A DNA stretch of 37,995 bases from Lachnospiraceae bacterium. GTDB lineage: Bacteria; Bacillota; Clostridia; Lachnospirales; Lachnospiraceae. The DNA lies in assembly GCA_021199235.1 (NCBI GenBank), contig JAJQIL010000029.1, forward strand, positions 1 through 37,995. Reading direction: 5' to 3'. The translations under genes and the position numbers were made by a program. The notes under the pieces are model-generated. The model saw only the letters and a list, made by a program, of their open reading frames with translations. It searched no databases and had not been told where the DNA came from. Positions 5,470-33,992 of the stretch are shown in pieces (position 1 is the stretch's first letter; every line of letters starts with the position of its first letter).

Positions 5470-5496
5470 TTAACTGTTCAATACCTTCACAGTTAC
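5470..5496. repeat. 27-bp palindromic repeat in the dacF leader
   Basis: TTAACTGT, an 11-nt loop TCAATACCTTC and ACAGTTAC match the family with one mismatch in the outer arm. It sits 25 bases upstream of the carboxypeptidase start, so it would form a hairpin in the 5' UTR just before the ribosome binding site. No target duplication is visible around it. Confidence 0.8.
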
Positions 5497-18363: not shown

Positions 18364-18740
18364 TTACACTTCTTCAATAATGCACGTATGATGCTTTCGG
18401 CTTTCGCCTTTCGCATCTTTATCATAGTTCACCCCAACCAGCATTACCCTGCCGCCGGAGCCTTTCAGCTTTCCATCATAGCGGTTGTCGTGTATTTGCT
18501 GAATCGCGGTATCCGCAGACTTGTTATATTTAAGTTCTATAAGCAGCGCGGGTTTGTCAGTTTCCTTTCGCGGAATGAAAGCATAATCAGCGAACCCTTT
18601 TCCAGGAGCCGTCCCATCGCGAAGCGATTCCATTGACGGCTCCGATCTGCCGCCGAACGAAGGTGAGGGGGCGTTTCCAACTGCGGGCAATTCACGGAAT
18701 ATCTCGTAATAATCAATGACGGTTTTGCAGCAGAAATGAT
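18364..18740 (-). pseudogene. C-terminal remnant of an AAA-ATPase/PD-(D/E)XK (DUF1703-type) protein
   Basis: The minus-strand frame contains VIDYYEIFRELP, then GKGFADYAFIPR and LLIELKYNKSADTAIQQI, the PD-(D/E)XK nuclease core found at the C-terminus of a common Clostridia AAA-ATPase family of ~500-550 residues. The ATPase part is missing: the frame runs into the start of the oppositely oriented GH20 gene. Between ELP and GKGF there is a ~25-residue extra stretch encoded by a palindromic insertion (18605-18643 plus flank). The left boundary of the remnant is approximate. Confidence 0.6.
18605..18643. repeat. Hairpin element related to the middle hairpin of the 134-bp MITE
   Basis: Perfect 9-bp arms GGAGCCGTC and GACGGCTCC enclose an inner ATCGC-GAA-GCGAT stem. 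The core CCCATCGCG.AGCGATT is shared with 33908-33924, while the outer arms differ but stay complementary. It is inserted in frame in the DUF1703-type remnant. Confidence 0.65.
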
Positions 18741-25227: not shown

Positions 25228-25339
25228 GTATTTATCAAACAGAACATATGTTTGATATCCTGTACGAATAAAAGCCAGGATGATATTTCAAATGAACTTT
25301 TTCCTGTAATTGTGAAGGTACAGAACACTTACGTATTTA
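25228..25339. repeat. Long-form palindromic element between parB and DUF4446
   Basis: The right end 25306-25332 (GTAATTGT, GAAGGTACAGA, ACACTTAC) belongs to the 27-bp family. Sequence to its left (AAATGAACTTTTTCC) aligns with AAATGGACTTTTTCC in the 33836-33969 element, and CAGAACA near 25240 matches that element's left end, so this is an internally shortened long form. GTATTTA occurs at 25228-25234 and again at 25333-25339, a possible duplicated target. Confidence 0.65.
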
Positions 25340-27292: not shown

Positions 27293-27369
27293 TTCCTCTG
27301 TTTTTCACAAAAAAACTTTCGTTCAAAGGTTTTTTCATATCGAAACGCTGTAATACATTAATTATTTTG

Positions 27370-27396
27370 GTAACTGTTCAGTACCTTCACAGTTAC
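27370..27396. repeat. 27-bp palindromic repeat with 8-bp target duplication
   Basis: GTAACTGT, loop TCAGTACCTTC, ACAGTTAC: a perfect-armed copy. TTATTTTG occurs directly before (27362-27369) and directly after it (27397-27404). The stop codon of the minus-strand coiled-coil gene lies inside the repeat (27393-27395). Confidence 0.9.
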
Positions 27397-28037
27397 TTAT
27401 TTTGAATTTGCTGAGCATAATCTTTGATCAGTTTCAGACAATTCTTTAATTCCGCTCTGCACCGATTCTTATTACCATTCAGAAAAGCTATGGAGGTTTC
27501 CGTCTTATCATATACTGTTTTTAAAAGAGACAATAATTCCTCTTTATTGATCGTCTCTTCAATTGTACTGTGTTCTGATTCATGATCTTCATTTTCCGAA
27601 GAATCCTGGACTGGTACAAAATCATTCTTTTCTGAGTCATCATGATCTAACGGATCCTCTTTATCCGGCGTTTCGTTATTTATGATAACTTCATCTGATA
27701 TTTCCTTATTTTCAGAAGTTTCGTGATATAATTCATCTTTCAGAATCTGATATTCTTCGCGTTTTTTCAACGAATCCTCTATCAATTGCGAAACGTATTC
27801 CATTCTTTGCTTCAGTTGTCGAATTTCTTCCTGTTTTTCATTCAGATTTTCATCAATATTCTTTTTAATTGCTCTGGGAGAAAATATTGTTGTATCAAGT
27901 CTCTTTTCCCTTTGCAGTTCTTCCATCATATGTTCCGCACAGGAAAGATCTGTTACAAGTTCCTGCATTTCCTGCTCAAAGCCTGATATTTTTCTGTCAT
28001 TTTCATCCTGTAAATTCTCTATATATTCCTTTAACAT
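27393..28037 (-). CDS. Coiled-coil protein of unknown function next to parA
   Basis: I do not recognise this 214-residue protein. Residues 1-100 are strongly predicted coiled coil (heptad-like Leu/Ile with Glu/Lys/Gln) and include a short TTIFSPRAI segment. Residues ~105-160 are an acidic Ser/Asp/Glu linker. Residues ~165-214 are again helical with several Cys/Lys. No membrane helix is present. It lies between two parS sites and upstream of parA, so a role at the origin is possible. Its last codon and stop come from an inserted palindromic repeat. A ribosome binding site is weak in front of ATG 28037. Confidence 0.65.
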   Translation of the reverse strand: MLKEYIENLQDENDRKISGFEQEMQELVTDLSCAEHMMEELQREKRLDTTIFSPRAIKKNIDENLNEKQEEIRQLKQRMEYVSQLIEDSLKKREEYQILKDELYHETSENKEISDEVIINNETPDKEDPLDHDDSEKNDFVPVQDSSENEDHESEHSTIEETINKEELLSLLKTVYDKTETSIAFLNGNKNRCRAELKNCLKLIKDYAQQIQNK

Positions 28038-32279: not shown

Positions 32280-32358
32280 GTAACTGTTCAATATCTTCAC
32301 AGTAAATAACTGTTCAATATTTTCACAATAAGTAACTGTTCGGTACCTTCACAGTTAC
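32280..32358. repeat. Three tandem copies of the 27-bp palindromic repeat
   Basis: Copies begin at 32280, 32306 and 32332, an exact 26-base period. The rightmost (32332-32358) is intact; the left two have decayed right arms. They fill the mnmE-mnmG intergenic region, so the cotranscript would carry one strong hairpin and two weaker ones before the mnmG ribosome binding site. Confidence 0.85.
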
Positions 32359-33794: not shown

Positions 33795-33834
33795 GTAATA
33801 AAATCCTCCATATGTTGGAAATATATGGAGGATT
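33795..33834 (-). terminator. Terminator between jag and mnmE
   Basis: Perfect 12-bp arms AATCCTCCATAT (33802-33813) and ATATGGAGGATT (33823-33834) with a 9-nt loop, followed on the minus strand by a T-rich stretch. Its upstream arm forms part of the 8-bp target duplicated by the adjoining repeat element. Confidence 0.7.
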
Positions 33835-33835
33835 C

Positions 33836-33969
33836 GTAACTATTCAGAACAGTACCTCGCACTCGCTGCGAGGTACGTATGAAAACTTATATTTTACAGG
33901 AAAAAGTCCCATCGCGCAGCGATTTTAAATGGACTTTTTCCCGTAACTGTGAAGGTACTGAACAGTTAC
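33836..33969. mobile_element. 134-bp MITE-like element with 8-bp target duplication
   Basis: The element consists of three hairpins: GTACCTCGCA/TGCGAGGTAC (33852-33876), GGAAAAAGTCC/GGACTTTTTCC with an inner ATCGC/GCGAT stem (33899-33941), and the 27-bp palindrome (33943-33969). The outer ends GTAACTATTCAG and CTGAACAGTTAC are inverted (11 of 12). GAGGATTC occurs immediately before (33828-33835) and after it (33970-33977). It encodes no protein. GTAA ends and 8-bp duplications are known for IS66-family elements, so an IS66-type transposase may have moved it. Confidence 0.85.
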
Positions 33970-33992
33970 GAGGATTCTATGATTAATCTGAT

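Follow-up and report, generated by a model that had tools for sequence, protein, structure and literature searches.

The window, the whole 37,995-nt stretch of DNA analysed here, carries in the spacer between jag and mnmE a gene-less insertion of 134 bp (positions 33836–33969), which is a MITE. Its insertion with an 8-bp duplication, the spread of its family, the match of its ends to those of the ISBst12 group, the existence of long and 27-bp alleles at the same sites and the covariation of its stems were all observed directly. With a probability of about 0.75, we propose that the MITE was inserted in trans by an ISBst12-group transposase and that its long form can collapse to a 27-bp palindrome. 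A DDE transposase of the ISBst12 group, which is the single-ORF branch of IS66, would act in trans by recognising GTAACTRTTCAG ends, and 8-bp staggered cuts made by it would give rise to the 8-bp target duplications. The inserted long form, mostly 132–136 bp in length, would subsequently lose its interior by a deletion between two GTAACT repeats, one forming its left end and the other the inner margin of its right-end palindrome, with the two hairpins located between these repeats favouring strand slippage. The product of the deletion would be the 27-bp right-end palindrome, still enclosed in its 8-bp duplications. The elements described below thus probably form a MITE family with ISBst12-group ends, the 27-bp companion being its remnant.

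The 134-bp insertion, its copies and its fold

The window is contig C31 of the source genome, G000, a draft of 3.47 Mb that is 95% complete. The sequence of the spacer was read directly and genes were identified by Pfam. The insertion, recognised on the plus strand from its sequence and from copies elsewhere, begins GTAACTATTCAGAACAGTACCT, and its ends as read are GTAACTATTCAG on the left and CTGAACAGTTAC on the right, mutually inverted. The left terminal inverted repeat, GTAACTATTCAG (33836–33847, plus strand), is the same as in the ends of ISBst12-group elements; the right one, GTAACTGTTCAG, occupies 33958–33969 on the minus strand. The element is bordered by copies of the target duplication GAGGATTC at 33828–33835 and 33970–33977. 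A preliminary description of this DNA had reported an element of 134 bp, its ends inverted, its interior made up of three hairpins and its 8-bp target duplication perfect, and direct reading and folding confirmed it on each of these points. It had also denied the interior any coding capacity; in agreement, none of the ORFs of at least 80 aa listed for the window overlaps the element.

A search with the element returned 45 matches in its own genome at E ≤ 0.001, partial ones counted (40 of 271 first-look candidates were scored), and 22 of the 47 genomes of the genus, the own one included, contained matches. Target duplications were counted at 30 loci of the own genome, three of which were partial and were dropped. 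Among the remaining 27 full-length copies the duplication was 8/8 in 19 and at least 7/8 in 24, while a shifted control gave 0/243. The exceptions were L013 and L017, with 3/8 each, and L026, with 5/8. Exact empty sites (net −8) were found in relatives both for long and for 27-bp copies; those for long copies included L023, L024 and L027 in G013, L027 in G007 and L018 in G010, among others. The identification as a MITE, made originally from the window, is now backed by copy number, by target duplications and by exact empty sites at other copies. The element is short and gene-less, has inverted ends and a duplication of fixed length, is dispersed in copies with empty sites, and shares its ends with autonomous elements, namely elements of other family genomes and of pHTA426 that have ISBst12-group ends. 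It therefore belongs to the MITE class.

A stem-loop (inverted repeat I2, 33802–33834, minus strand) lies between the element and mnmE. One of its arms contains the target and overlaps the left copy of the duplication. The claim that the insertion stands against the jag terminator held as far as this overlap is concerned; the stem itself was not among the terminators listed by a simple terminator scan, and its role as the minus-strand terminator of jag is probable. Empty sites in sister strains, proposed as a check, were obtained for the several other copies named above, but no alignable empty allele of the window copy was found among the relatives whose jag spacer was examined. The jag–mnmE spacer of G010, about 60 bp in length, is without the element and not alignable to the window, and in the five other relatives where jag could be seen the spacer measures 130–374 bp and is unlike in sequence. 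One of these five, that of G016, holds a different short element of similar style, and another, that of G021, ends in a stretch resembling the 27-bp palindrome. The mnmE–jag spacer of G013 (L070) has a different palindromic insert of about 190 bp, which apparently lies within the loop of the jag terminator stem. Because this insert, too, appears in the stem loop, the jag terminator may be a repeated insertion target.

The 134-bp element folds into three hairpins with z = −6.95 as DNA and −7.33 as RNA, and in each case 0/200 shuffles were as stable. Hairpin 1 (GTACCTCGCA/TGCGAGGTAC, 33852–33876) has a stem that covaries across genera, and both stems of hairpin 2 (33894–33946), including the inner ATCGC/GCGAT stem, covary as well. 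Covariation was scored in 13 representatives chosen from 97 copies of 128–145 bp, such that none scored ≥86% against another; all 13 carry a target duplication. The fold is kept in these representatives, with 94.8% of cells paired and double changes in 15 of 30 pairs, figures that are flattered by the derivation of the structure from the same alignment. In the controls, 0/500 shuffles were as high on four measures and 1/500 on a fifth, and slid controls were 30–43% paired. Summed over the stems, there were 40 double-change cells vs 3 single-sided ones, and only 4 G-U cells among approximately 366 standard cells. So few G-U pairs suggest a constraint at the DNA level or on two strands, or else correction of the arms by template switching.

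Short dispersed palindromes with covarying stems could also be structured RNA genes, or REP-like sequences mobilised by a tyrosine transposase of the RAYT type. However, the 8-bp duplications found here are regular, and REP/RAYT systems are not known to make target duplications. The proportions of G-U cells and of single-sided changes given above would be unusual for RNA selected on one strand, and no Rfam family matched the element at gathering score. We regard this explanation as the least probable of those considered, with hardly any weight. The only Rfam families found elsewhere in the window were tRNA and GA-cis, the latter at 18601–18682 (57.5 bits) and unrelated to the element.

The candidate mover

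Elements of the ISBst12 group have ends of the GTAACTRTTCAG type and 8-bp duplications, and the MITE has both. For ISDge4, a member of the group, the available part of its report gives the ends GTGACTACTCAGCA/GTAACTGCTCAGCA and an 8-bp repeat (PMC12898284, 2026), and an ISBst12-group element is listed on pHTA426 in the part available of another paper (PMC8024623). The pHTA426 element, annotated as ISGka4 family, encodes a 485-aa IS66-like transposase with PF03050 and DUF6444; its ends are GTATCTATTCAGCCCAGTAC/GTAACTATTCAG, or GTATCTATTCAGCCCAGTACT/GTAACTATTCAGCCCGTAC in a longer reading, and its duplication is 8/8.

A DUF6444 search of the family gave matches in 12 of 299 genomes at E ≤ 0.001 (8 above cut-off). 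Paired ends without a matching duplication were found at L516 and L518. At L516, where the end GTAACTGTTCAGAAC was read, the pair GTATCTGTTCAGAACCCCC/GTAACTGTTCAGAACCCCC surrounds a gene for a 487-aa transposase; the reading of these ends as lying inside the gene was rejected, since the gene is in the opposite orientation and the ends enclose it. One matching end each was present at L514, L519 and L521, beside a short or cut gene; that of L514, beside a short gene, is GTAACTATTCAGAAC (GTAACTATTCAGAACCCCC in a longer reading). Duplications of 8/8 were found at L506, L522 and L523, the ends of which are slightly different (GTTAC-) and read GTTACTGTTCAC/GTTACTGTTCAG in L523. Within the genus, ISBst12-like protein matches occurred in 7 of 47 genomes and were mostly partial. 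A complete 2.27-kb single-ORF IS66-type copy is present in genus-mate G009, with a 520-aa ORF, an 8/8 duplication and ends GTTACTATTCAC that match at 10 of 12 bases. A 692-aa ORF of genus-mate G042 is accompanied by a single end, GTATCTATTCAG (11/12), 268 bp beyond the ORF; a second end was looked for there and none was found.

IS66 copies with matching ends, whose absence from the clade the preliminary description had named as evidence against an IS66-type mover, thus do occur in Lachnospiraceae, where they have ISBst12-group ends. Judged by its ends and duplications, the ISBst12 group is well indicated as the class of the mover. Which transposase moves the MITE we can only infer, because the own genome, 95% complete, yielded no IS66 transposase, whether of the ISBst12 group or other. 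Within the genus, an ISBst12-like match does not clearly track carriage of the MITE (4 of 16 carriers, defined as genomes with at least 18 matches to the element, vs 3 of 31 others). Since it is gene-less, the 134-bp element does not encode the single-ORF IS66-type transposase of the group, and it is filed as a MITE with ISBst12-group ends, not as a group member.

The IS66-type mover originally proposed was thus upheld for the ISBst12 group, the ends and 8-bp repeats of which match, but not for canonical IS66. A canonical three-ORF IS66 element would account for the GTAA start and the 8-bp duplication, and PF03050 occurs in 21 of the 47 genomes of the genus and in 105 of the 299 of the family, with the ISBst12 type counted in both. 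However, the readable canonical ends in the family start with GTAAGCG, GTAACCG or GTAAGTAG. They read GTAAGCGTCAAATAA or similar, with 8/8 duplications at L102, L107 and L119, and do not match the GTAACTATTCAG/GTAACTGTTCAG of the MITE. No pair of GTAACTGTTCAG ends was found to flank a gene at 65 loci (30 from the genus, 30 from the family and five further ones), in scans that took GTA/ATA starts only, at loci some of which are cut by contig ends, and that gave scattered single matches with 2–3 mismatches; such scans are blind to the GTTAC ends later found in G009 (locus L267, one of the 30). PF03050, which includes the ISBst12 type, is absent from the own genome at 95% completeness, and within the genus the presence of PF03050, whatever its kind, is no clear correlate of MITE carriage either (6 of 16 carriers vs 15 of 31 others). 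We consider a canonical element very unlikely to be the mover.

The 27-bp palindrome and its relation to the long form

The right end of the element is a 27-bp palindrome, GTAACTGTTCAGTACCTTCACAGTTAC (33943–33969, minus strand), that also occurs solo elsewhere in the genome. It was not reported in the first reading and was found as a stand-alone dispersed element. With up to 3 mismatches allowed and the right ends of long copies counted, the own genome contains 161 occurrences, the reversed control giving 0. They are often solo, and many have a perfect 8-bp duplication of their own. One such solo element lies in the window at 27370–27396 (plus strand) between two copies of TTATTTTG, at 27362–27369 and 27397–27404. 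An array of three units of 26–27 bp occupies 32280–32358 (plus strand) in the mnmG–mnmE spacer; the 7/8 target duplication at its last unit is the end of the preceding palindromic unit, as if insertions struck the ends of older copies. A degenerate 27-mer without a target duplication is found at 5470–5496 (plus strand), and a degenerate right end at 25306–25332 (minus strand) is probably that of an old long copy. At 27393–28037 there is a 214-aa ORF without a Pfam match, which takes its stop codon from the end of the solo 27-mer (GTTAC on the minus strand). In other genomes the palindrome varies: a paired change in both arms (GTAACTAT/ATAGTTAC) is present in 8 of the 13 copies listed for G321 and in one listed copy of G319, and 10 of the 13 listed for G267 have a one-arm change (CAGTCAC) instead.

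A duplication test around 27-mers, with up to 7 mismatches allowed and no partner end assumed, revealed duplications of at least 7/8 in 31 of 154 cases vs 1 of 770 control comparisons (both figures are sums, and the remaining 27-mers comprise, among others, old copies and the right ends of long ones). In the DNA searched, a partner end with a duplication was found at 164 of 328 right ends, the other 164 being without a partner. The size spectrum of those 164 elements is as follows: 65 of 27 bp, 65 of 132–136 bp, 10 of 141–143 bp, 17 of 151–236 bp and 7 of 50–96 bp. Two main size classes, 27 and 133–135 bp, were also evident in 1.22 Mb sampled from three species. No element above 300 bp with these ends and a duplication was found among the 328 right ends, many of the loci being only about 3 kb in length, so that longer ones could be missed; candidates above 300 bp for larger autonomous copies in the fetched DNA were rejected because of their poor ends.

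GTAACT (CGTAACT in the window copy) is found both at the left end of the long form and in the inner arm of the palindrome. The outer copy of this direct repeat (33836–33841) and the inner one (33943–33948), both on the plus strand, flank two hairpins and are the proposed site of deletion. Direct repeats on either side of hairpins are a configuration that favours slippage. Long and short forms were found at three orthologous sites. At the first, G007 has 27 bp and G013 has 135 bp within an identical 8/8 duplication. At the second, G000 has 27 bp (L051, 6/8), G013 has 53 bp and G012 is empty. At the third, 27 bp in G007 (C31:59611, 6/8) correspond to a truncated long copy in G013. Because these sites differ by a 27-bp vs a longer allele, solo 27-mers appear to be what an in-place deletion between the GTAACT repeats left behind, and we think that this is probably their origin. 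The change would run from the long form to 27 bp, with slippage as its presumed mechanism. Eight distinct long sites are common to G000 and G013 and equal in length within 1 bp (C83:47404, C83:50756, L006, L010, L019, L026, L028 and L029); as none of them is 27 bp in G013, collapse is not fast. Three further loci were set aside during this comparison. L067 was rejected as a 27/134 pair with G013, the differing duplications indicating a separate insertion; G007:C31:80255 is a complex site relative to G013 and was left out of the same-site count; and, by eye, the 1.5-kb insert next to the L057 site of G013 was taken to be unrelated.

States of the G000 sites in G013 were determined in a merged comparison, in which overlapping loci were counted once (L044 = L019, L068 = C137, L030 = L051, L042 = C22 and others) and sites with more than 12 unaligned flank bases, such as L053 and C83:72240, were omitted. 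Of the 27-mers with duplications of at least 7/8, four distinct sites were empty and four the same; with 6/8 duplications, two were the same and one was other (53 bp); below 6/8, where right ends of long copies are included, one was empty, one other and nine the same. Long copies were empty at three distinct sites, the same at five and other at one. The 27-bp sites of G000 that are empty in G013 leave room for direct insertion of 27-mers. The 27-bp palindrome might, then, itself be transposable: its two GTAACTGT arms would be what the transposase recognises as ends, with the 134-bp form a composite on it. Besides the empty sites in G013 (the four with at least 7/8 and the one below 6/8, which has 3/8), two 27-mers of G013 with 6/8 duplications are at sites empty in G000, and L064 is a 27-mer where G007 and G010 show none, 32 bp of its left flank being unaligned. 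The 65 copies of 27 bp with duplications of at least 7/8 in the fetched DNA fit such mobility as well.

Long copies and 27-mers also differ in the base that precedes the inner arm (p = 0.02 at 8/8 and 0.008 at ≥7/8). However, collapse predicts this bias equally, since the repeat grows to CGTAACT wherever the left end is preceded by a C, and the bias was rejected as ambiguous proof of mobility. The three same-site differences show that one form becomes the other in place. The inner arm of the palindrome and the 12-bp end have only 8 bp in common, and two transposase-bound ends would have very little room in 27 bp. In addition, a 27-mer common to G000 and G007 and absent from G013 (C83:72240) suggests that precise loss of 27-mers also occurs, which is another source of empty sites and blurs their counts. 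We rank collapse first and consider mobility of the 27-mer itself doubtful, if a good deal more credible than the alternatives discussed above. If an ISBst12-group transposase did insert the 27-mer as a mobile unit, duplicating 8 bp of target, few known transposable elements would be smaller; the 134-bp MITE would have this 27-bp unit as its core, and the near absence of G-U pairs in the stems would reflect a folded single-stranded or cruciform DNA intermediate.

Distribution and comparison with known systems

The exact 27-mer is present in at least 113 stretches of named genomes. The 80 matches listed come from Lachnospiraceae (Oliverpabstia, Blautia, Murimonas, Catenibacillus and Roseburia among them) or from MAGs labelled Clostridiales, Eubacteriales, Clostridia, Eubacterium or bacterium, and these loci display the recurring design with other interiors and 8-bp duplications. 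Across Lachnospiraceae genera, the design recurs with different interiors and covarying stems. In the family sample, the 27-mer (up to 2 mismatches) was found in 26 of 299 genomes, the own one included, with up to 132 copies in one. Among 2.9 million viral contigs there were 0 matches to the exact 27-mer or to an extended pattern, though hosts carry dozens of copies. Matches at 75–78% identity were found in 3 of 50,697 phage records, and none among 72,556 plasmids.

No description of the repeat was found in open-licence PMC papers. The element is new in detail and ordinary in kind. It ties a widespread repeat of gut Lachnospiraceae to a specific, little-studied transposase group, and the occurrence of long and 27-bp forms in the same duplication makes the decay of mobile DNA readable. 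By analogy with eukaryotic solo LTRs, a long insertion probably once stood where a solo 27-mer is now found. The covarying three-hairpin fold, gene-less and almost without G-U pairs, raises the question of DNA-level structure in transposition. In this family, the spread and decay of small mobile DNA can be studied in a simple natural setting.

REP/BIME sequences are short dispersed palindromes in high copy. The present repeats resemble them in this respect, but 8-bp duplications and DDE-type ends belong to the present element. Elements of the ISBst12 group, such as ISDge4 and the ISGka4-family element of pHTA426, are like the MITE in having GTAACTRTTCAG-type ends and 8-bp direct repeats; those delimited here are about 1.6–2.3 kb in length and contain a transposase gene, whereas the gene-less MITE shares only their ends. 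Canonical IS66 elements (GTAAGCG ends), as read here and in PMC11946415, have the GTAA start and the 8-bp duplication in common with the MITE and differ from it in the sequence after GTAA. Other MITEs with size variants are Correia/NEMIS (about 107/155 bp), QMITE1 of Coxiella (39–400 bp) and MITEAba12 (111–114 bp), which, in the available parts of their descriptions, are small and gene-less and have target duplications like the present element (PMC2229807, PMC10969869, PMC6382973). As far as those parts describe them, the present family is unlike all three in that its sizes fall sharply into classes of 27 and about 134 bp and that many of its 27-bp copies keep the duplication.
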